From Candidatus Treponema caballi (GTDB lineage Bacteria; Spirochaetota; Spirochaetia; Treponematales; Treponemataceae): a DNA stretch of 39,111 nucleotides. Below, piece by piece: positions 1 through 9,826 of this stretch (positions within the stretch are counted from its first letter, which is position 1; each line of letters opens with the position of its first letter). Location of the stretch: assembly GCA_018066285.1 (NCBI GenBank), contig JAGHRS010000014.1:1-39111 (forward strand), written 5' to 3'. A model generated the notes under the pieces. That model was not told where the DNA came from, made no database searches, and saw nothing but the letters and a program-made list of their open reading frames with translations. The position numbers and the translations under genes were made by a program.

Positions 1-1
1 C

Positions 2-199
2 CTGAAAACTATTCTTGTAAGTAATTCGTTTACTCTTGAAAATAGAAATCAAGATGAATTTTATACTGATAAGATGTTCTCTGGTTGTACAAATCTTGTA
101 GGCGGAAATGGAACTACATTCAGCGCAGCTCATACCGGCCCGGATTACGCCCGCATTGACGCACCTGGAACTCCAGGTTATTTCACTGCAAAGAACTGA
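2..199 (+). CDS. BspA-like surface protein, 3' end only
   Basis: The open frame runs in from the left edge and ends in TGA at 197-199, so only the last 65 residues are visible. They contain the signature MFSGCTNLVGGNGT, then a YARIDAPGTPGYFT ending. This is the usual tail of BspA-like / DUF285 leucine-rich-repeat surface proteins, where each repeat carries an 'MFxxCxxL' motif. Such proteins are normally exported and are common in gut treponemes, mycoplasmas and Firmicutes, where they are thought to act in adhesion. The start, signal sequence and repeat count lie outside the window. A strong terminator follows 27 bases downstream. The family is clear from the motif, but function cannot be judged from this fragment. 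Confidence 0.75.
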   Translation: MKTILVSNSFTLENRNQDEFYTDKMFSGCTNLVGGNGTTFSAAHTGPDYARIDAPGTPGYFTAKN

Positions 200-225
200 T
201 CCTGTTTTATAAGTTGACTGAAAAA

Positions 226-257
226 GCCTTGCACAATCGTGTGCAAGGCTTTTTTTT
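226..257 (+). terminator. Rho-independent terminator of the BspA-like gene
   Basis: A perfect 9-bp stem, GCCTTGCAC pairing with GTGCAAGGC, closes a 6-base loop and is followed by eight T residues. It lies 27 bases after the stop codon of the upstream gene. Confidence 0.9.
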
Positions 258-270
258 GTGCGCACGGTTT

Positions 271-343
271 GCAGACAAGGCCGTTGTGCGCTTTCAAGGC
301 TGGCGCGCTGCCTGCAGATAAGGCATATGTGCGCTTTCAAGGC
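271..343 (+). repeat. Two tandem units of a short interspersed repeat
   Basis: Units at 271-300 and 314-343 read GCAGAyAAGGC, a short variable stretch, then GTGCGCTTTCAAGGC, with a 43-base period. Inverted relatives lie inside the phosphodiesterase gene (1486-1517 and 1708-1739), and another copy is near 3268-3296. The family therefore occurs both between and within genes. Confidence 0.7.
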
Positions 344-380
344 TTGCGAGCGCAGAAAAATGCTTTATTTTTCGGAAACT

Positions 381-417
381 GGTCCCCGCGGCGGCAGAAA
401 AGCGCGTTTCGGGGACC
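381..417. repeat. GGTCCCC/GGGGACC hairpin, copy A
   Basis: GGTCCCC (381-387), 23 bases, then GGGGACC (411-417). It is preceded by CGGAAACT. An inverted copy with the same spacing is at 571-607. Confidence 0.6.
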
Positions 418-570
418 CGCCTTTTGTCTAGATCTGACAAAGCTGTGCTTTTAAAACGGTATATTTCAGCGAAAATGCTTATAATAACTCCAAAAACTCT
501 AATTTAGGATCAGTCTGTCAGGAGTTTTCCGCGAAATCTGCAAAAAAGCCCCTTTTCGCTGCCACCAGCG

Positions 571-607
571 GGTCCCCTTGCAGCGAAAAATCCCCCAAAA
601 GGGGACC
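571..607. repeat. GGTCCCC/GGGGACC hairpin, copy B (inverted)
   Basis: GGTCCCC (571-577), 23 bases, GGGGACC (601-607). Read on the minus strand it is preceded by CGGAAGTCT, matching the CGGAAACT before copy A. The two copies are thus an inverted pair about 150 bases apart with different loops. Confidence 0.6.
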
Positions 608-710
608 AGACTTCCGTTTTTTAACCGAAAACGCGCCTCTCTTTTTGAAAGCACGCGTTCCTATTTGCGCACCCCCGCTCTTGAAAGCAAACCTTTCCAC
701 GCCCGTTCCC

Positions 711-911
711 TAAGAAACGCCAGTTGAACTGTCTTTAGTGATGCATGTGGATAGGCCGTAGGGGGGAAGCTGGCTCGACACGCATCGGCCCCGAGTTCGG
801 CGCTATGCGCCGGACGAGTGAAATACCTTAGCGCCGCAGCGTGGCGGGACAGATTACCCCCGTAAGGCCTATCCACATGCATGTCTGCAGCTTGTTCAGC
901 TGTCGTTTCTA
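711..911. repeat. Structured ~200-bp interspersed element, copy 1
   Basis: The arms ATGCATGTGGATAGGCC (741-757) and its exact complement (866-882) enclose GTA-GGGGG on the left and CCCCC-GTAA on the right. Outside these, AGAAACGCCAGTTGAAC (713-729) is nearly complementary to 894-910, which continues the stem. The inner text (GAAATACC, CTTAGCGCCGCAGC, GGCGGGACAGA) resembles copy 2 at 3364-3553. The right arm ends exactly at the stop codon of the phosphodiesterase gene (909-911). It could be a mobile palindromic element, a structured RNA, or a large bidirectional terminator. The sequence shows the structure but not the role. Confidence 0.75.
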
Positions 912-1916
912 AAGGAAACTCCACCAGTGCGCTATGTTCATGTCACGCGCCGTTTCTTCTCCGTGGTCTCCGGGCGGAATGCCGAATTTTGCGTGGCAGC
1001 CGTGGTCTGGCGCAAACGCGAGCGCTGTTTTGTGCTGCTGCCAGTTTTCAGCAATCGCATCCCGAAGCGTGCAGTATGTGCTGATATTCTCGCGTAACGC
1101 ACGGCGCGCCATGAAGCCTGTCGGCGTGACGCGGTGCATCCAGTAGTCGTAGTCACCGTTATAGAGCACGATCACGTCGTATCTGTCTTCCAGGATGAGT
1201 TCGAGCGCCTTCTCATTGCACTCCTGCTTTGTCTTGTAGATGAAGTAATCGACCGGGCGGTTCAGGAAGATGAGCGATATGCTGTCTCCCGCCGTGCTGA
1301 CGATGGCCACTTTCTTCCCAGCCGCGGGCAGTGCGTCAAAAATAGTCGGCACGGTGAGCACAGGCTTCTCGTACTTTCTGATCCCGTGCTCTTCAGGAGT
1401 GAGCCCGCTGTACATGGAAGCAAAGCACACCGGCGTTTTAGGCGGCACGACCGAGCACATTTCGAGCATGAGTGGCGCGCCGCCTGCCTTGAAAGCGGCA
1501 TCTGCCTTATCAGCGCCTGAATCTTTAGAAAGGGGACGGACCGCCTCTACGCAACCAGTTTCGAGCGGCGCAAAGTACGCCTTGTATTTCTGATAGAGCC
1601 ACCAGGCAATCGCGTCCGGATTGTACATGAAAACGCGGTCACATCGCGCGCCTGAAAAAGCAGAAGACGCTGCAGTAAGCACGGAAGAGAGCGGGCGCGC
1701 CGCCGATGCCTTGAGAGCAGAAGATGCCTTGTCAGCGCCCTCAGCTTCCGAAAGCGAACTTGCGTCACCAGCTTCTGAAAGCGAACTTGCGTCACCAGCT
1801 TCTGAAAGCGAACCCGCGCCGAGCAGCGCACAGATTGTCGCCGCTACCTGCGTGATGCAGTTATCCTTGAAAATGCCGTCGCTCATATCCGCCTGACCAT
1901 GCATATCCGTGCTCAT
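909..1916 (-). CDS. Alkaline-phosphatase-superfamily phosphodiesterase
   Basis: A protein of about 335 residues from the type I phosphodiesterase / nucleotide pyrophosphatase branch of the alkaline phosphatase superfamily. Visible signatures are PPKTPVCFASM followed by YSGLTPEEHGI (the nucleophile Thr/Ser region), NGDYDYWMHR (metal-binding Asp and His), FAPDHGCH, and PGDHGEE near the C-terminus. I chose the ATG at 1914-1916. It overlaps the stop of the upstream permease as ATGA, has AAGG in front, and indicates translational coupling. A longer frame reaches 2000 but lies inside the permease gene. Two segments look inserted between conserved blocks: a Ser/Ala-rich tract from a 27-bp tandem repeat, and two copies of an interspersed repeat encoding ADKA-type peptides. 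The substrate is unknown. No signal peptide is seen, so a cytoplasmic role is likely. Confidence 0.75.
   Translation of the reverse strand: MSTDMHGQADMSDGIFKDNCITQVAATICALLGAGSLSEAGDASSLSEAGDASSLSEAEGADKASSALKASAARPLSSVLTAASSAFSGARCDRVFMYNPDAIAWWLYQKYKAYFAPLETGCVEAVRPLSKDSGADKADAAFKAGGAPLMLEMCSVVPPKTPVCFASMYSGLTPEEHGIRKYEKPVLTVPTIFDALPAAGKKVAIVSTAGDSISLIFLNRPVDYFIYKTKQECNEKALELILEDRYDVIVLYNGDYDYWMHRVTPTGFMARRALRENISTYCTLRDAIAENWQQHKTALAFAPDHGCHAKFGIPPGDHGEETARDMNIAHWWSFL
1486..1517 (-). repeat. Interspersed repeat inside a gene, copy c
   Basis: On the minus strand it reads GGCGCTGATAAGGC, then GCCGCTTTCAAGGC. It is translated in frame as ADKADAAFKA in the phosphodiesterase. It matches 1708-1739 at about 26 of 32 bases, and both are flanked by GGCGCGCCGCC. 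Confidence 0.65.
1708..1739 (-). repeat. Interspersed repeat inside a gene, copy d
   Basis: A second in-frame copy in the phosphodiesterase, giving the peptide ADKASSALKAS. It has the same reading frame and flanking GGCGCGCCGCC as the copy at 1486-1517. Confidence 0.65.
1744..1824 (-). repeat. 27-bp coding tandem repeat, about 2.7 units
   Basis: Units start at 1744, 1771 and 1798. The first two differ by one base (gcttcYgaaagcg), and the third diverges after GCTTCTGAAAGCGAAC. The unit is a multiple of three and encodes GDASSLSEA on the minus strand, so copy number can change without breaking the frame. Confidence 0.85.
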
Positions 1917-3073
1917 CAGCGTACCTTGGCGAGCGCGCCGACTGTGGCGAGCACAGAGCTTATAACGACGATGATCTGGAAGGGCAGAGTGCCGCTCCAT
2001 CCGCAGATAAGGCTTTCGTCCTCGCGCTTACGGCTCCTGTTGTACGACACGATGATGCCGATGCCCGTCACCACCTGGATGACTGACGCAATCCGCGTAA
2101 AGCCGACGAACGTCTGAAGGCCGAAGAGCGCGAGCAGTACGCTCGGTATGCAGGATATGAGATAGGACTTCCGTAAGCCCATGTTCGTCTGTTCGTGAAC
2201 GATGTCGCGCAGGTTGAGCGTGTTTGCCCAGAACGATGTAGCGAGCGCGAGCAGCGAGAAAAAGTAGCCGACGACGCTGACCCATCCGCCAAGATGCGCT
2301 GAAAGGTCGACGAGCGCACCGTTCTGCGTGATGGCGCTTCCAGCTCCAATCAGCGTCATGGTCGTAATCAGGAGAATCAGGCCGACGTTGATGCCCGTGC
2401 CCGTTGCAATCGCTCGTCTGACACGTTTTGCATCTCCGTTCAGGCCTTTCACGACCTGCGGAACTGACATGACGGCGGATAAGCTGAAGCTCACCATGCT
2501 GTAAAGCGCCAGCAAGTTGCTCGATGCGTGGAACTCACATGGAAGTGGAGAAAGTGGAGATTTGAGCGTAGCCACCAGCAGAACGATGATGACGCCAATC
2601 ATCGCCCACACGGAAATCTTTTCCGCAATGCCGACGAGCTTCATCCCGAAAAGGACGACGAGCGCCGCAAGGATGAAGAAAAGGAGCATGCCCGCCCAGT
2701 CTGGAATGCCGAACCATGCGTTGAACACCGCACCCGCGCCAGAAACAAAACTCGAAACGTTCGCAAGCACCGAAAGCCCGAGGAGGCCGAACGCAATCCA
2801 CGTTACGATTTTCTTAGCCTTGCCCGTGAAAAGCTCGTTCTCCAGGCACTTGATGAACTGTGCGCCCGAATTGTTGTATGAAAGCTCAGTAATCATGTAG
2901 TGCATGAGCAGATTGACGAAATAGACGAGTGCGATAATCCAGATGATGTCCCACCACGTGTTGCGTGACGCAAGATACGGTACCGCAAGAATGCCCGAGC
3001 CGACGCCATGTCCGACAATAATGCTCGTCGCCTCCGCAAACGTAAGCCGCGCCTCAGATGTGATTTCTTTCAT
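1916..3073 (-). CDS. Amino-acid permease, aromatic/HAAAP-like
   Basis: A 385-residue polytopic inner-membrane protein with about eleven hydrophobic helices. The N-terminal segment AEATSIIVGHGVGSGILAVP has the glycine-rich first helix typical of APC-superfamily transporters. Overall length and the later SFWANTLNLRD region suggest the HAAAP / Tyr-Trp permease branch, which exchanges or co-transports amino acids with protons or sodium. The start ATG has AGGAG eight bases upstream. Its last codon overlaps the phosphodiesterase start (ATGA), so the two are very probably co-transcribed. Substrate specificity cannot be read from sequence. The start lies about 290 bases downstream (in its reading direction) of structured element copy 2. 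Confidence 0.8.
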   Translation of the reverse strand: MKEITSEARLTFAEATSIIVGHGVGSGILAVPYLASRNTWWDIIWIIALVYFVNLLMHYMITELSYNNSGAQFIKCLENELFTGKAKKIVTWIAFGLLGLSVLANVSSFVSGAGAVFNAWFGIPDWAGMLLFFILAALVVLFGMKLVGIAEKISVWAMIGVIIVLLVATLKSPLSPLPCEFHASSNLLALYSMVSFSLSAVMSVPQVVKGLNGDAKRVRRAIATGTGINVGLILLITTMTLIGAGSAITQNGALVDLSAHLGGWVSVVGYFFSLLALATSFWANTLNLRDIVHEQTNMGLRKSYLISCIPSVLLALFGLQTFVGFTRIASVIQVVTGIGIIVSYNRSRKREDESLICGWSGTLPFQIIVVISSVLATVGALAKVR

Positions 3074-3363
3074 AAATACTCCTGTGCCTCTATTTTACGC
3101 CAGAAAAAGCTAAAACGCCAGCCAGATGATATCATTCTGTGCGTTGCGTGTCCGTCTGCCTCCGGCAGCCTTCCCCGCCGGGCTTTCCGCACTTCGCTCC
3201 CGCTCATCCTCCTCGCTTCGCTGCGGTGGACTGCTCCGCAGGTGCTCCAATCCCTAACGCGGTTCGCTCATAAAGCATATGTTGCGCTTTCAAGGCATGT
3301 GCGCGCAGCGCTTTTGGGCAAGCCCGCTCATCTCGCCGCGTGCAGTTTAAAAGCAGAAAAATC
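3074..3363. other. GC-rich spacer upstream of the permease
   Basis: About 290 bases with no credible gene. It includes an interspersed-repeat copy (about 3268-3296) and a block (3301-3363, beginning GCGCGCAGCGCTTTTGG) that is repeated at 7008-7068 in front of element copy 3. The permease promoter should lie here, but I could not pick one out. Confidence 0.5.
3268..3296 (+). repeat. Interspersed repeat, copy e
   Basis: Contains AAAGCATATGTTGCGCTTTC followed by AAGGC. This matches the 3' half of the units at 271-343 and those embedded in the phosphodiesterase gene. Confidence 0.55.
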
Positions 3364-3553
3364 TGCGTGAGCGGGAGATGGTGAGCATTAGTGTGCGGGA
3401 GTACTGGCCGTAGGGGAGTGGCTGAAACGACTTGCATCGCTCGCGAGCACGAAGTGCGAGTCGAATACCATAGCTGCGCAGCAAGGCGGGGCAGACACAC
3501 CCCGTAAGGCCAGTATTCACGCAGTCTGTTAATCCCCATCTCCCGCTCACGCA
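3364..3553. repeat. Structured ~200-bp interspersed element, copy 2
   Basis: It is bounded by a perfect 18-bp inverted repeat, TGCGTGAGCGGGAGATGG (3364-3381) and its complement (3536-3553). A second stem inside, GCGGGAGTACTGGCC against GGCCAGTATTCACGC, leads to the core GTA-GGGG (3410-3416) facing CCCC-GTAA (3500-3507). Arm sequences differ from copy 1, but the pairing and the core are kept. The flanks on both sides are also shared with copy 3, so copies 2 and 3 belong to a longer repeat of about 300 bp. It lies between the patatin stop and the permease. Confidence 0.8.
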
Positions 3554-3562
3554 CATATGTCT

Positions 3563-3595
3563 TTATTTGAAAATGAACGAGGGGAGCTTGGCGGC
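3563..3595 (-). pseudogene. Remnant of a HAD-hydrolase C-terminus
   Basis: Read on the minus strand this encodes AAKLPSFIFK and a TAA stop. The intact HAD gene at 7277 ends AAKLDAFIFK and TAA. The bases following the stop are also shared, up to and through the structured element. The fragment begins just after the patatin stop codon, has no start, and is too short to function. It looks like a leftover of a duplication or recombination that carried the element plus the end of a neighbouring gene. Confidence 0.6.
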
Positions 3596-3599
3596 GCTT

Positions 3600-5447
3600 C
3601 TACAGCTTGCAGTGAAGCGACGCGTATACGCTTTCATCAGCGAAGTTCCAGCCGGCTCTCAATCTGAACGGAATATTGCGTAGTCCGATAAGGCCGACTG
3701 TCGTTCCAAGCTCGAGACCTGCTGTGAGTGAAAGCGCGTCTTCGCTTCCGGATGAGCCTGAACCGTTTCCAGAAGCGTACTGTGCGGTACAGAACGCTCC
3801 GATGCGTGGGTTCGTCACGATGAGCATTTCAGCAAATCCGCGGGAGAATGAGCGGCTTACGAGGGAAAGTGTAAAATCTCCAAAGTAAGTGAAGTTATCA
3901 ATATCGCCAATATCTGAAAAATCATCAGCGCTTTCTACGGTGCCTGATGAGCGGACGCCCGCCTTCAGATCAAGTGCAACCGGCCCGAAGTTTGCGTCCG
4001 CTGCTGCTGAAACCTGCGCTGCAAAAAGCGAGTCGCTCGTGTATTCAGCGCCAAGACCTATCTCAAGCGCACCGTCCGGCAGCAGGCCTGGAATGCGTAG
4101 TGTGAGTGCGCCGTCCGTGCTCCAGAGTGGATCTGCGTTTCCAGAGTCCGCTCCGCTGTCCTGAGAGCCGGCGGTTGGGAACCATGAGAAGCCTGCTGAA
4201 AGGCGGAGCGGCGGGAGAATGAACCATGCGGCTTCTGCGCCGACAAGTCCCTTGCAATAGGTGTCGTCAGTGGAAAGCGCGATTGCCGCTCCCGCCAGCG
4301 TATCTAAGGTAAAATTGCCGGCCCGGAACGTAGCACCCGCGCCAACGCTGGAATCACTGCGGAGCGCCGTATCTTTTGTGATGCCTGTAATTGATGGATA
4401 AAAGGAGACGACGCTGTTCTTCACGTGCTTGAACGGCGCGTATTCCTTGTGAACGGAAGCGAGCTTATCCTCATACTGCGTGCGGAGTGCGAGTAGTTCT
4501 GCGGACGGGCCCGTAAAAGCTCCTCCGGCACAATCCTTCAGGGATGCAATCGCATCCGCCTGTTCGAGCGCGGAAGCATATCCCCTTTCACACAGTTCCG
4601 TGCATGCTGAGAATTCCATGAAACTGAACTCTTCAACGTCGCAGCGTATCCACACCGCATCCGGGTGGTTGAGCAGGTCGACGACTCCCTGGCGGCGTTT
4701 GCCTACATCAATTGACGTGTTGAGCGCCGTTATCGGGTTGTTCAGGTTCAGGTTCTTGCCTGCGTAAAAGGTCGTCGAGACCATGTTGCAGTTGCTGTAA
4801 TCGTATGCGATGCCGATTGGCGAAATGTTCGCGATGCCGCCATCCACAAGTTTGTGGCCGTTGTAGGATATGCTTGAGAAGTAGACGGGCAGGGCGTAAC
4901 TTGCGTCGAGCACGTCGTAAAAATCGCCCTCACAGATGCGGATCTGCTGTTTGGTGACGAGGTCCTCGCAGACGACCATCACCGGAATGGCGAGGTCTTC
5001 AACACGCAGGTCCTTTCCGAGATAGGCACTGACCAGGCTTCTGAAGCGGTCGGAGTTTATCAGGCCGCGGTTAGCAGGAAGAGCGAGGTCAAACAGACCG
5101 CCGATATCCGTGTCGGTCATGATTTCAAGAATCTGGTCGGGCGAAAGGCCTGCGCCATAGAGCATGCCGATGATGCTTCCCATTGAGTTTGAGACTATGA
5201 AATCGGGAACGATGCCCTGTTCTTCAAGATATTTCAATACGCCGATGTGGGCGAATGCGCGTGCGGAACCGCCTGAAAGCACAAGCCCGACCGGTTCGCG
5301 TGTGCCGCCTGTTTTGGCCTGAATGCGTGCGACGAACTGTTCGCCGCCATACGTAAGAGGAATGTCTGCATCAAGAAGATTTGATTCAGCAAAAAGAGTA
5401 GTGAAGGCGAACCCCGCCAGCATTAAAATAAGCAGTAACTTTCTCAT
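3600..5447 (-). CDS. Patatin-like phospholipase with C-terminal beta-rich domain
   Basis: A predicted 615-residue exported protein. The chosen start gives MRKLLLILMLAGFAFTTLFAES, a clean signal peptide. A frame opening at 5483 adds twelve residues and has a weak GGGGGAT ahead, so the start is not certain. The patatin domain (about 50-330) shows SGGSARAFAHIG (oxyanion loop), the nucleophile serine near 88 in SNSMGS (a variant of GxSxG), and the catalytic Asp near 201 in VDGG. Residues from about 340 to the end are rich in alternating hydrophobic strands and end in an aromatic-containing strand, which suggests an outer-membrane barrel. Patatins hydrolyse acyl esters of phospholipids. The arrangement recalls surface-displayed bacterial patatins, though classical PlpD-type POTRA motifs were not identified. 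Confidence 0.8.
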   Translation of the reverse strand: MRKLLLILMLAGFAFTTLFAESNLLDADIPLTYGGEQFVARIQAKTGGTREPVGLVLSGGSARAFAHIGVLKYLEEQGIVPDFIVSNSMGSIIGMLYGAGLSPDQILEIMTDTDIGGLFDLALPANRGLINSDRFRSLVSAYLGKDLRVEDLAIPVMVVCEDLVTKQQIRICEGDFYDVLDASYALPVYFSSISYNGHKLVDGGIANISPIGIAYDYSNCNMVSTTFYAGKNLNLNNPITALNTSIDVGKRRQGVVDLLNHPDAVWIRCDVEEFSFMEFSACTELCERGYASALEQADAIASLKDCAGGAFTGPSAELLALRTQYEDKLASVHKEYAPFKHVKNSVVSFYPSITGITKDTALRSDSSVGAGATFRAGNFTLDTLAGAAIALSTDDTYCKGLVGAEAAWFILPPLRLSAGFSWFPTAGSQDSGADSGNADPLWSTDGALTLRIPGLLPDGALEIGLGAEYTSDSLFAAQVSAAADANFGPVALDLKAGVRSSGTVESADDFSDIGDIDNFTYFGDFTLSLVSRSFSRGFAEMLIVTNPRIGAFCTAQYASGNGSGSSGSEDALSLTAGLELGTTVGLIGLRNIPFRLRAGWNFADESVYASLHCKL

Positions 5448-5519
5448 GATTTTATTGTACGCGCGATTTACGGAAAAAGCCATACGGCAGAATCCCCCAT
5501 AAATCCAACTTTTCCTCTC

Positions 5520-6158
5520 TTGTTTTCATACCATAAATGTCTGATAATCAAACTGTCCCGGGAACAAGGAGTCATTAGTGACAGCATTTCTTTTTCGGGC
5601 GTTGTTGTTCTGTTTGTTGTTGCAATAATCGGTTCAGGTTATGGAAAGCCTTTCTTCAGAATCTTTTCGTCAAAAAAGAAGTTTCAGTCCCTCAATCTGC
5701 AGGAACTTAGGAAAACGGACCAGGCGCTTGAATTTGCGGGAAAAATACTCTTTTATACAGCTGTTTTGATTCCCTTCCTCGTGTTGATCTATACACTCCG
5801 CAACTTCTACAAAGATGCGGGGACCTACCGCCATCTGGGCCCAAACATGGCTGTACTGCTTCTTTCCATTCTGTATATGGCTCTTATAGAGATGATACTC
5901 TGCACTTTGAAGGCTAAGACACACAAAGCAGTCATCATGTACATGGCGGATGAGAAAATGCTTGATAGGAAAAAGGGAGCGTTCAGCGGCAACGGAATAG
6001 CTGTCAGTCAGAAGCATCTGTATCTGAATGCGGTAAAGCTGACGGTCAGCCTTAACTGGTATGCCGCTTTTTCAGGTGCAGCATGCGGATGGATTGGAAT
6101 GCTGTGTAATCTTGAGGATATCAGCAGCCTGCCTGAATCTGTTCCTGCTGCTTGTTGA
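5520..6158 (+). CDS. Hypothetical membrane protein, possibly part of a broken gene
   Basis: 212 codons with hydrophobic helices near residues 26-42, 78-97, 108-128 and about 170-195. The loop SSKKKFQSLNLQELRK precedes the second helix. I do not recognise the family. The ATG at 5520 has no ribosome site. An AAGGAG lies at 5565-5570, but the GTG it serves (5578) is in another frame that closes after sixteen codons. The next frame downstream (6195-6407) is in the same phase, separated by two in-frame stops, and is again hydrophobic. A LuxR-type DNA-binding domain follows in the next phase. The simplest reading is that all three are pieces of one former membrane-bound regulator, but separate small genes cannot be excluded. 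Confidence 0.45.
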   Translation: MFSYHKCLIIKLSREQGVISDSISFSGVVVLFVVAIIGSGYGKPFFRIFSSKKKFQSLNLQELRKTDQALEFAGKILFYTAVLIPFLVLIYTLRNFYKDAGTYRHLGPNMAVLLLSILYMALIEMILCTLKAKTHKAVIMYMADEKMLDRKKGAFSGNGIAVSQKHLYLNAVKLTVSLNWYAAFSGAACGWIGMLCNLEDISSLPESVPAAC

Positions 6159-6194
6159 ATGCAGAGTCACTGCCAGTTCTGAAGCGGATTAGAA

Positions 6195-6407
6195 ATGATT
6201 GCTGATATTGTGTTTGCTGCGGTTACAACAGTCATCATGACACTGCTGACCGCAGACCTTTTGCTTACGGTAATCCAGCTGATGATTCTTGTAACCCGTC
6301 TGGAATCTGCTTCTGCAGAGCTTCCGGATTGTCCTTTCTGTGGGCGAGGGGATTCATGCAAGAAAGAACGGATGTGCGGAAACGCCGGAAAAAACTTCGG
6401 CGTCTGA
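6195..6407 (+). CDS. Small membrane segment with Cys cluster, upstream of LuxR domain
   Basis: 70 codons starting ATG ATT GCT. One or two hydrophobic helices ([14 protein letters not shown] and [12 protein letters not shown]) are followed by [17 protein letters not shown], which has zinc-ribbon-like cysteine spacing. It shares the reading phase of the 5520 frame. It overlaps the start of the LuxR frame at 6340 in a different phase, so a one-base shift near 6340-6400 would join helices and DNA-binding domain. A weak AGCGGA precedes the start. It could be an independent small membrane protein, but context favours a fragment. Confidence 0.4.
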
Positions 6408-6615
6408 AAATACTGGCGGCCCTGAGCCACGCAGCTTAGATTATTCCCTTTTGTCACGCCGTGAAATTGAAGTTGCCCGCCTGGCTGCCAAAGGCTATAC
6501 AAACGCCCAGATAGCAGATGAGCTTTTCATCAGCACCGAGACCGTAAAAAGCCACATGAACGCCATCTTCGAAAAACTCCACATTTCATCCCGAAAAGAC
6601 CTGATGCTGCAGTAA
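6340..6615 (+). CDS. LuxR-type helix-turn-helix DNA-binding protein
   Basis: 91 codons from a GTG. The last 60 residues are a complete GerE/Lux[22 protein letters not shown], then [18 protein letters not shown] and [12 protein letters not shown]. This domain binds promoter DNA and is normally attached to a receiver, ligand-binding or membrane sensor part. Here the N-terminal ~30 residues are unstructured and no sensor is in frame. The frame is open from 6295 but has no ATG and no ribosome site, which supports its being the C-terminal piece of a larger gene beginning at 5520. If expressed alone it would resemble the small single-domain LuxR regulators. Confidence 0.6.
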
Positions 6616-6626
6616 GCGCGCAGCGA

Positions 6627-6652
6627 AGGGCTTCCTGGAGAGGCTTTTTTTT
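6627..6652 (+). terminator. Possible terminator after LuxR frame
   Basis: GGCTTCCTGGAGAGGC can form a short imperfect stem and is followed by eight T and then a run of G. The T-run is strong but the stem is weak. Confidence 0.45.
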
Positions 6653-6659
6653 TGGGGGG

Positions 6660-6918
6660 GGTAAAATACTAGAATACAGATGATTACCATGACTTTTCCA
6701 GAGTTGCATCATGGTAAACCCTCAAATACTAGTATTTTACCATGAAATTAAGCCTCCTTTTACAGAGATTTCAAAGTAAAATACAAGATAAAGCCTGTTT
6801 ACCATGACATTTTTGTCAAAACTTCATGGTAAAATACTAGAATTCACACATTAACCATGACGCCTGCTTTTATCCGCCAGACTTTTCATGGTAATGGTCA
6901 ACATTCTAGTATTTTACC
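6660..6918. repeat. Cluster of small palindromes with shared 20-base motif
   Basis: The motif CATGGTAAAATACTAGAATT occurs complete at 6825-6844. It is partial at 6660-6675, degenerate at 6776-6788, and inverted at 6729-6744 and 6903-6918. Between copies, TTACCATGA pairs with TCATGGTAA around variable loops: 6684-6717 and 6799-6832, with a looser third at 6852-6893. AAATACTAGTATTT (6724-6737) is a perfect 14-bp palindrome. The outermost copies face each other, so the cluster as a whole is an inverted repeat of about 255 bp. No gene is present. Confidence 0.75.
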
Positions 6919-7007
6919 CTCATTTTTTTCCTCTTTCCTCCGCGCTACGCGCGTCAGAGACCACTCTATTCCTTCTTTGATAAACCCGCAAAAAAAGATC
7001 CCCCTCA

Positions 7008-7068
7008 GCGCGCAGCGCTTTTGGCCAAGCCACCTGATTAACGCGTGCATTTCAAAAGCAGCTACAAC
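7008..7068 (+). repeat. Left flank shared by elements 2 and 3
   Basis: Begins GCGCGCAGCGCTTTTGG and ends near AAAAGCAG. It corresponds to 3301-3363 upstream of element 2, with a few substitutions and a small gap. The homology runs straight into the terminal inverted repeat. Confidence 0.65.
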
Positions 7069-7267
7069 TGCGTGAGCGGGAGCCTTTCGGGGATTCAGTG
7101 TGACTGAGTGTGCCGTAGGGGTGGCTGGCACTGTGAAGCCTCGGCAGGTATTTGCCCGCCTCCCTGCCGCCAGCGAGCAGGGACAGCTGCCCCGAGAGGC
7201 ACACTCAGTCACACCCCGTAAGGCCAGTACTCCCGCAGTCTGTTAATCTCCATCTCCCGCTCACGCA
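7069..7267. repeat. Structured ~200-bp interspersed element, copy 3
   Basis: Terminal inverted repeat TGCGTGAGCGGGAG (7069-7082) against 7254-7267. The core keeps GTA-GGGG (7115-7121) and CCCC-GTAA-GGCC (7214-7225). Unlike the other copies, the 16-base arm TGTGACTGAGTGTGCC (7099-7114) pairs perfectly with a segment at 7198-7213, inside the right half of the core. This leaves the right GGCCAGTACTCCCGC arm without its partner, which suggests a rearranged or hybrid copy. It sits between the LuxR frame and the convergent HAD gene, whose stop is ten bases away. Confidence 0.75.
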
Positions 7268-7276
7268 CAGATGTCT

Positions 7277-7876
7277 TTATTTGAAAATGAACGCGTCAAG
7301 CTTGGCGGCATCTCCGTCGAACAGGTACGTGTTGAGTCCGCAGAACTTCGCGCCCGCTATGTTTATGACGAGGTCGTCAATGAACAGGCACTCATCCGCT
7401 TTAAGGCTGAACTTGGTGAGCAGGTGCTCGTAAATGCGCGGATCAGGCTTCAGGAGCTTCAGGTACGCGGACACGACGAGGCCGTCAAAAGCGTCAGCTG
7501 CCGGCATGCGCGGCCAGTAAATGTTGTGGCGCGCACCTGCGTTTGAAAGCAGGTAAATCTTGTATCCTGCTTTCTTTGCCTTGTAAATGAGGTCAGCCAT
7601 GCCGGGAACGGGCAGAATCGCGGGCTTATCCCAGTCAAAGACGAGCGGCCGCGCGTACTGCTTAAGGTGGTCAGGCAGCTGCTTTTCAGCAAGAGAAGCC
7701 ATTTCTTCTTCGGTGTGGAATCCCCAGTCGGTAAGCGTCCAGTCTGGGGAATCGTATATCACGCGGCGGAGTGTCGCGCGGTCTTCTTTGTCTGTGATGC
7801 CCTTTGCATCGAGAAAGTCTTCAGGGCTCCACTTGAAGATAGTGTTGCCCATATCAAAAATCAGGTTCTTAATCAT
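7277..7876 (-). CDS. HAD-superfamily phosphatase (subfamily IA, YihX-like)
   Basis: 199 residues with all four HAD motifs: FDMGNT with nucleophile Asp8, LLSNAG (Ser111), the LKLLKPDP lysine (Lys143), and FIDD (Asp167/168). The 'DxGN' form of motif I is typical of YihX-like sugar-phosphate phosphatases and some dehalogenase relatives. It starts 12 bases after the stop of the double permease and is probably the last gene of the importer operon. A phosphatase in that position suggests that the imported compound is, or becomes, a phosphate ester; this is inference. The last codons and downstream flank are duplicated as a remnant at 3563-3595. No good ribosome site is seen, consistent with translational coupling. 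Confidence 0.8.
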   Translation of the reverse strand: MIKNLIFDMGNTIFKWSPEDFLDAKGITDKEDRATLRRVIYDSPDWTLTDWGFHTEEEMASLAEKQLPDHLKQYARPLVFDWDKPAILPVPGMADLIYKAKKAGYKIYLLSNAGARHNIYWPRMPAADAFDGLVVSAYLKLLKPDPRIYEHLLTKFSLKADECLFIDDLVINIAGAKFCGLNTYLFDGDAAKLDAFIFK

Positions 7877-7888
7877 AGCGTCGCCAGT

Positions 7889-9826
7889 TTACTTCTTTTC
7901 CGCTTTTTGTGCATCCTTCTTAACGGAAGTTTCAAGGCTTGCAGCCTCTTTCTTTCCGAAAAGCCTGTTGATGCGGTTCCGCCACTTCTTGCGGTTTTCA
8001 AGACGTTCGCTCAGATCGCGCGCGCCGACGCCGTAAACCAGGTACAGCACGATACCGCTTACAATCATGATGAAGACAGTTGAAGCACAGCGCCGTCCTG
8101 ATGCGTTTACGTTGTAGCCGTACAGACCTTCTTCCAGACACATTGCCTGAATGACCATTGCATACGATGTTCCGTAAGACGAAGCGAATGTCGCTGACAT
8201 GTCGTACTCGGTGAACAGCGCGTTGAAGTTGAGCGCGATGACGGCAAGTACGCTTGGCAGGATGATAGGCAGCTTGACCTTGAAGAACGTGAAGATTGGC
8301 GACGCTCCAAGGTTTTTCGCCGCGTCCTCAAGTTCCTCATCTATCGCATAGAACGCCGCCTTTATCATTCGTAAGCTGAACGGCAGTTTCGTCACCGTAT
8401 ACGCGATGATTATCAATAGCCTGACGTTCGGGCCGTAGTACAGGTTGTTGCCTGCAACGTACCAGACTTCACTTGAGTTGAAATATACGCGGTACGAATA
8501 GCAGATGAGGATTGTCGGCAGCAGCCACGGGAACAGCAGCGAGTACTCAAGGACGGCACCTGTCTTTCTGTGCTTGAAGATGTACGAACAGGCGACAACG
8601 ACGATGACAGCCGCAAAGACAGCTGCAATCGCAGAAAGGATGAAGCTTATCTTGATACCGCCGAGTGTTGCGTCGTTGGCGAATACGCCGGAAATTGAGC
8701 CTTCGCGTACCTTGTACGTTCCGCGGCTCGTCAGGTACGAATAGTCCTGCTGGCCGAAGTAGTTGATGAACGTCCAGTTCTTGAAGTCAATCGTCTTCAG
8801 GCGGATGGCGCTGTAGGTCTGGAATGAGAAGATGATGATCATGACGACCGGTGTCATGTAGATGATGAACAGCACGTATGCGTAGATGTGTGCGAACACG
8901 TTTGCCACCGGATTGTTGATCTTCTGCTTCTGAAGCTTTGCCTTCGTCTTTGAGACTGACAGGTAGTGGCCCTTACGCTCGTAAGAAGAGAGAATCGTGA
9001 GCAGTACGATGGTGAACGTAGCCAGGATTATTGAAAGAAGTGCAGCGCGGGCCTGCGGGAACGACTCATCCGCTGAAGAGGAACCTGCGAGGCGGACAAT
9101 CTCCGGATTGATGGAGTCGTATCCGAGCAGGGTAGGGGCAGACATAGCACACAGACCTGTGATGAACGTCATGATGGTCAGGCTGAACAGTGTCGGCAGC
9201 AGTGTTGGAAGAACGACCTTCCACAGTACCTTGAACGGGTTTGCGCCAAGGTTGCGTGCTGCTTCGACCGTGTTGTAGTCAATGCCGCGAAGGGCGTTCC
9301 TAAGGAACAGCATATGGTTGCTCGTACAGGCGAACGTCATCGTGAAGAGGACGGCGTTGAATCCGCTGAACCAGTTCGGGTTCATATCCGGGAACGCGTT
9401 CACGAGCAGCGTCGTTATGATGCCGTCATTGTCGTACAGGAACATGTAGCCGGTAACGAGCGCAACTCCGGAATAAATGAGCGTCGTCATGTAGCCCATG
9501 CGGAGGAAGCGCGCGCCCTTTATGTCGAAGTACTCAGTCAGAAGGACGATGGAGATGCCGACCACGTTTACCGTGATGACAAGACATATTGCAAGCTTGA
9601 GCGAGTTCCAGACGAACGAACCCATGTTGCCTGCAAGGAAAAAGCGGATGACGGCGAACGGGTCGCGTGTGCCATCTGCGTTCTTTACGTTGAAAATGCT
9701 TGTCAGCGTGTTCAGACACGGCAGCAGCATGAAACCGAAGAACAGGTACGCAAAGAAAAGGCCGCCCAGGATGTGGAGCAGGTTCTTTGTGTCAAACTGC
9801 TTTTTTGTGAGTGAATTACTGCTCAT
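7889..9826 (-). CDS. ABC importer double permease (FbpB/AfuB-like)
   Basis: A 645-residue inner-membrane protein containing two fused BPD_transp_1 permease domains. Each has the cytoplasmic EAA loop that docks on the ATPase: VEAARNLGANPFKVL near residue 187 and LEDAAKNLGASPIF near residue 499. The two-in-one form with about twelve helices is usual for iron(III)-type / 2-aminoethylphosphonate / hexose-phosphate importers. The start has AGGAGG six bases upstream and overlaps the end of the ATPase gene by eleven bases. The C-terminal tail after the last helix is Lys-rich (KKWRNRINRLFGKKEA). It works with the ATPase and binding protein encoded just upstream in the same operon. Confidence 0.88.
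   Translation of the reverse strand: MSSNSLTKKQFDTKNLLHILGGLFFAYLFFGFMLLPCLNTLTSIFNVKNADGTRDPFAVIRFFLAGNMGSFVWNSLKLAICLVITVNVVGISIVLLTEYFDIKGARFLRMGYMTTLIYSGVALVTGYMFLYDNDGIITTLLVNAFPDMNPNWFSGFNAVLFTMTFACTSNHMLFLRNALRGIDYNTVEAARNLGANPFKVLWKVVLPTLLPTLFSLTIMTFITGLCAMSAPTLLGYDSINPEIVRLAGSSSADESFPQARAALLSIILATFTIVLLTILSSYERKGHYLSVSKTKAKLQKQKINNPVANVFAHIYAYVLFIIYMTPVVMIIIFSFQTYSAIRLKTIDFKNWTFINYFGQQDYSYLTSRGTYKVREGSISGVFANDATLGGIKISFILSAIAAVFAAVIVVVACSYIFKHRKTGAVLEYSLLFPWLLPTILICYSYRVYFNSSEVWYVAGNNLYYGPNVRLLIIIAYTVTKLPFSLRMIKAAFYAIDEELEDAAKNLGASPIFTFFKVKLPIILPSVLAVIALNFNALFTEYDMSATFASSYGTSYAMVIQAMCLEEGLYGYNVNASGRRCASTVFIMIVSGIVLYLVYGVGARDLSERLENRKKWRNRINRLFGKKEAASLETSVKKDAQKAEKK

Follow-up and report, generated by a model that had tools for sequence, protein, structure and literature searches.

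A family of short dispersed repeats lying between genes and in frame within genes of Candidatus Treponema caballi

Can a bacterial repeat settle inside conserved proteins without forming a hairpin, and do so in a spirochaete? This question is raised by a 39,111-nt stretch of the Candidatus Treponema caballi genome (contig JAGHRS010000014.1, labelled C36 in our genome-wide coordinates), which was analysed whole and is called the window. Near its start, short similar units lie between genes and, inverted, twice inside a phosphodiesterase gene. Repeats embedded in proteins have been described chiefly in a handful of lineages, Rickettsia and Wolbachia foremost, and the usual explanation is a mobile element that folds into a hairpin. 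A hairpin-less family in a 2.9-Mb genome would show that the palindrome and the reduced intracellular genome are both dispensable. Moreover, enzymes as well characterized as MnmE, RsmG, RimO, Lon, ClpB and chorismate synthase would supply dozens of naturally occurring insertions with which to study how a protein copes with a foreign segment and perhaps takes it into use.

The repeat unit in the window and in the genome

All five units of a preliminary description of the window are present (table 1). The core GCTTTCAAGGC occurs at 290-300, 333-343 and 3286-3296 on the forward strand and at 1486-1496 on the reverse strand, and GCTCTCAAGGC occurs at 1708-1718 (reverse strand). The second intergenic unit follows 43 nt downstream of the first. 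The partner motif ascribed to every unit holds in four of them, which carry GAYAAGGC before the core; at 3268 a degenerate version, ATAAAGC, takes its place. The ADKA...FKA/LKA peptides were read correctly, as the phosphodiesterase segments spell ADKASSALKA and ADKADAAFKA, and the first insert of this gene also holds a 27-nt tandem array. Allowing at most one mismatch, GCTTTCAAGGC has six matches in the window against 1.15 expected, a count reached by none of 100 shuffles.

Table 1. Repeat units and their host gene in the window
Feature	Position	Strand	Details
Intergenic unit 1	268..307	+	16-nt spacing class, GACAAGGC...GCTTTCAAGGC; model R1 E=3.5e-7
Intergenic unit 2	311..349	+	16-nt spacing class; R1 E=7e-8; exact GATAAGGC/GCTTTCAAGGC pair
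Host gene, type I phosphodiesterase-like, 336 aa, two units	909..1919	-	Pfam PF01663 E=3.2e-6; orthologues
In-gene unit A, ADKADAAFKA	1477..1533	-	15-nt spacing class; R1 E=1e-8
In-gene unit B, LSEAEGADKASSALKA	1699..1755	-	15-nt spacing class; R1 E=3.6e-6
27-nt tandem array of upstream sub-module, SLSEAGDAS peptides, adjoining unit B	1735..1818	-	Repeat family D7
Intergenic unit 3	3268..3303	+	Left half degenerate; R1 E=0.0027 for 3280-3303

The same region carries a different, larger family, with intergenic units of ~200 bp at 706-917, 3346-3571 and 7042-7286. These have inverted arms of 60-70 nt around a GGCCGTAGGGG...CCCCGTAAGGCC core (D1, D9, D18 and I1-I3). At 6659-6928, an array of some five short units, alternately inverted and based on GGTAAAATACTAG...ACCATGA, is followed by one large repeat. 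In positions 1-8000 of the window, Rfam gave no known RNA family at E<=1 and no match to the ~200-bp family.

The preliminary description had made its family depend on further copies, and these are plentiful in the genome (2.9 Mb in 75 contigs, 99.8% complete, 0.6% contaminated). The 11-mer GCTTTCAAGGC has 58 exact matches (27 forward and 31 reverse), where ~1.4 would be expected by length and the reversed-letter control gives one. A sequence-only model of 42 positions (R1) has 64 matches at E<0.01.

When copies are stacked, conservation extends well past the 11-mer. In the alignment of copies whose GATAAGGC and GCTTTC starts lie 15 nt apart, it runs from -22 to +34. The full unit is ~57 nt (19 codons), GCTTTCnGAAGCn6-7GCAGATAAGGCATCAnCCGCTTTCAAGGCATCGGGCGC; that is, GCTTTCnGAAGC, then 6-7 variable bases, then GCAGATAAGGCATCAnCCGCTTTCAAGGCATCGGGCGC. 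Its sense frame reads LSEAxxADKAxxAFKAxGA. The extent first given was thus too short, the actual unit having the upstream GCTTTCnGAAGC block. This block is not part of the search model and emerges all the same, which gives independent support for the unit as a real entity. A profile of the 57 nt finds 29 matches at E<0.1 in 400 kb of sampled stretches, against one in the same DNA reversed. We estimate a total of ~60-100 copies in 2.9 Mb, a figure resting on pattern searches, model searches and sampled stretches, with matches ascertained by a model built mainly from gene copies. The copies are diverged: mean pairwise identity is 54% over 43 units (including two weakly aligned), and no two of these 43 qualify as recent duplicates in pairwise comparison.

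Relatives carry next to nothing of this family. Model R1 has 0-1 matches in each of 39 relatives, six of them of the same genus, against 64 here, and the count of GCTTTCAAGGC is at or near control level in 58 relatives. None of the 394 further genomes searched within the class contains the paired motif, and the exact GATAAGGC/GCTTTCAAGGC pair is absent from the viral contig collection searched. In the open-licence literature, we found no earlier report of such a family in treponemes. Within the genome, copies are spread over 20 contigs, in unrelated genes, and cluster on C24, C61, C33 and C36 (each P<0.01). Some long contigs, C57 (149 kb) and C47 (125 kb) among them, have no copies, and several 100-kb contigs are empty. 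Sampled stretches bearing copies tend towards higher G+C.

Host genes and sites of insertion

The family is dispersed both between genes and in frame within them, as had been proposed. The majority of copies lie within long genes, where both orientations and several frames occur; non-coding copies were found at 268-349 of the window and at C24:62655. Hosts identified with NCBIfam and Pfam are MnmE (three units), RsmG, RimO, Lon, ClpB, chorismate synthase AroC (two segments), the NAD(P)H-hydrate epimerase/dehydratase NnrD (at least five units), a PfkB kinase (four), EarP, HrpB, a dihydroorotase-type amidohydrolase, an RluA-type pseudouridine synthase, an EF-G-like protein, ribokinase, a D-2-hydroxyacid dehydrogenase, ThrE and others. 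Orientation is unconstrained, as the antisense units of MnmE, ClpB, AroC and HrpB demonstrate.

Copies fall into two spacing classes. The 41 copies of the 15-nt class are all in long open frames, and about half of the 15 copies of the 16-nt class are intergenic. This association between class and coding location has a Fisher P of order 1e-6, an approximate value because coding was called by frame length. The confinement of the 15-nt class to genes hints at one subfamily specialised for coding DNA. In genes, copies of the 15-nt class read ADKAxxAFKA, or ALKADxALSA in antisense, and those of the 16-nt class mostly read GLESxxxPS. The frames used are largely those that the sequence leaves open. 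At L013:1006-2715, a single frame of 570 residues apparently unites an oxidoreductase with ribonuclease HI, and a repeat unit lies where the two meet, as though it had helped to join the genes.

In every gene compared with congeners or solved structures, the unit is an insertion or a lengthened loop. Whether the phosphodiesterase segments are missing from orthologues had been named as a check: none of four related orthologues has either segment, nor does a fifth, at locus L033. In particular, unit A lies within a 25-residue insertion that none of the five has, and unit B lies in a loop of variable length among the same proteins. Insertions or longer loops also mark the units of AroC, PfkB, NnrD, RsmG and MnmE relative to their orthologues. 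Shared segments in distant species, which would have spoken against embedded elements, were not seen in the phosphodiesterase or in the solved RsmG, AroC and MnmE structures; alignment with the latter opens gaps where the units lie (11-12 residues at the clearest sites, in AroC and MnmE). Net length gain is uneven, ~7 to 31 residues across sites compared at the protein level with congeners of which the nearest are ~50-80% identical in protein, so that not every site shows a clean insertion of 57 nt. RsmG has gained only 7 residues net over most congeners because the loop itself varies.

Rickettsia elements insert at surface, non-structured positions of their host proteins, and models of two hosts bear on such placement here. 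In the predicted structure of RsmG (pLDDT 86; Z 22 against solved RsmG), the unit occupies the end of helix 66-82 and the loop before the first strand (92-96), as would be expected if it were an extension that the protein tolerates outside its core. The phosphodiesterase model (pLDDT 45) is uninterpretable.

Two further observations concern these comparisons. One congener (G005; loci L123, L143 and L161) has its own, unrelated Ala/Ser-rich insertions where PfkB, phosphodiesterase and MnmE carry the units here, as though loops often grew longer in this genus, each species using a different sequence. Additionally, the phosphodiesterase gene and the neighbouring Trp/Tyr-permease-like gene (909-3073) are paired also at L033:2760-4786, with 53% identity. 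The contig of L033 is labelled Lachnospiraceae, and the shared gene pair suggests either that the genes passed between distant lineages or that the bin is wrongly labelled.

Origin of the family and rival explanations

Sense copies differ from the consensus by 76, 59 and 74 changes at codon positions 1, 2 and 3, and this count reveals no excess of silent change among them. The even spread, together with the antisense and intergenic copies, argues that the repeated thing is DNA and not a selected peptide; peptide selection finds no support in this spread, with its lack of synonymous preference. It is also hardly credible that the likeness arose by convergence, with Ala/Ser/Lys/Asp-rich linkers written in the genome's favoured codons coming to look alike by chance. 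In its favour, the peptides resemble linkers, and the corresponding loops of one congener hold unrelated inserts rich in Ala and Ser (L123, L143). Yet antisense, other-frame and non-coding copies contradict convergence, as do the invariant AAG codons, the evenness of change over codon positions and the contrast of 58 copies with one in the reversed control.

Direct signs of movement were not found in the DNA. No hairpin beyond shuffles was found (mean folding z +0.12 over 43 units, one of them below -2), and the alignment fold has only four pairs and no covariation; a conserved hairpin was rejected on these two results. The units have no terminal inverted repeats, since the 5' end of the profile (GCTTTC) and its 3' end (GGGCGC) are not complementary. 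A scan of the flanks, with unit ends placed provisionally, gave no offset with recurrent direct repeats, so that no target-site duplication was detected. With none of the three features found, movement by transposition stays hypothetical.

Taken together, the copies probably form a species-level family of ~57-nt non-autonomous DNA repeats of the selfish type, copied into intergenic DNA and genes. The unit would be copied around the genome as a non-autonomous dispersed repeat, with insertion roughly blind to frame. Selection would then favour copies whose frame remains open and whose residues are small and hydrophilic (ADKAxxAFKA, ALKADxALSA or GLESxxxPS), and retained copies would sit in permissive loops of the host proteins, so that the protein keeps working. 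A more specific proposal, which we advance tentatively, is that of a very short, non-palindromic mobile repeat without terminal repeats or target duplication, living mainly in protein-coding genes and lengthening loops of essential enzymes through an undescribed copying mechanism.

The copying step is where the selfish-repeat explanation overlaps with its closest rival. It is possible, if somewhat doubtful, that units spread by error-prone copying and not by a transposase, through template switching or slippage wherever short blocks (GCTTTC, AAGGC) are shared, with repair or replication building new units in existing loops from units already there. The missing target duplications and terminal repeats agree with this, as do the variable insert length, the clustering on four contigs noted above, the 27-nt array in the phosphodiesterase and the tandem pairs 41-65 nt apart (C33:51443/51506, C24:104118/104183, C4:90286/90346 and C36:268/311). 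Tandem pairs and uneven insert lengths, in particular, leave room for template switching or slippage. On the other hand, the scatter of copies over 20 contigs, among unrelated genes and in either orientation, speaks against such copying, as does the recurrence of the three-block order and the 57-nt length. An explanation by function, in which the unit is a DNA site (e.g. an uptake signal, a methylation site or a chromosome-organising site) and its coding effect is tolerated, seems improbable. The cores, GCTTTCnGAAGC and GCTTTCAAGGC, are short near-dyads and vary less than the flanking bases, although this constancy is partly ascertainment, and copies lie on both strands, in and between genes. 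Against this, there are only ~60-100 copies in 2.9 Mb, absent from all congeners and tied to insertions, not to point changes. A DNA uptake sequence would be expected to be spread genome-wide in high copy, whereas the 64 matches are clustered, with several 100-kb contigs, C57 and C47 among the long ones, left empty. A true Rickettsia-type palindromic element or a classical MITE family is very unlikely. The family shares the habitat of the Rickettsia elements, being both intergenic and in frame within housekeeping genes, and the copy number is similar, but there is neither a hairpin beyond shuffles nor a terminal inverted repeat, and the unit measures ~57 nt against 105-146 bp (PMC2229807).

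Comparison with known repeat families

The preliminary description had likened the units to the protein-embedded palindromic elements of Rickettsia. The protein-embedded habit and the absence from orthologues bear this out; the palindromic nature does not, given a folding z of +0.12. As summarized in PMC2229807 and PMC10969869, the Rickettsia elements (Ogata et al. 2000) are 105-146 bp long, with terminal inverted repeats and a long stem-loop. The treponeme family resembles them in being dispersed, intergenic and in frame in conserved housekeeping proteins, with a recurrent extra peptide that the host tolerates. It differs in its ~57-nt unit, its lack of a stem-loop or terminal repeats, its sequence and, apparently, its phylum. 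In other words, in-frame presence in conserved genes alongside intergenic copies is found here, whereas two defining features, the long-stem-loop palindrome and the length of 105-146 bp, are not, so the family works like the Rickettsia elements without being one of them.

Other small repeats offer partial parallels. Bacterial MITEs with open frames (ERIC, the 107-bp Correia element and YPAL) are also small, non-autonomous and able to fuse in frame to genes; they are ~100-200 bp long, with stable stem-loops and usually target duplications, and mostly intergenic (PMC2229807), whereas most recognized copies here are in genes. The cyanobacterial SDR repeats (Elhai et al. 2008, cited in PMC4390886 and PMC3116915) are very small mobile repeats and share with this family the form of very short dispersed units without a transposase of their own. 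SDR5 is reported to insert at HIP1 sites (PMC4390886), and no target of this kind is seen for the repeat here. PARCEL repeats likewise place a repeated coding unit across diverse genes, but as palindromic, widely distributed tandem tracts in membrane and surface proteins (PMC2996958), in contrast to the mostly single or paired units in cytosolic enzymes of one species.

The sampled genome loci contain other over-represented 12-mers (e.g. AGGGGACGGTTC and GGGGCGCCTGCC), which point to further dispersed repeat families.
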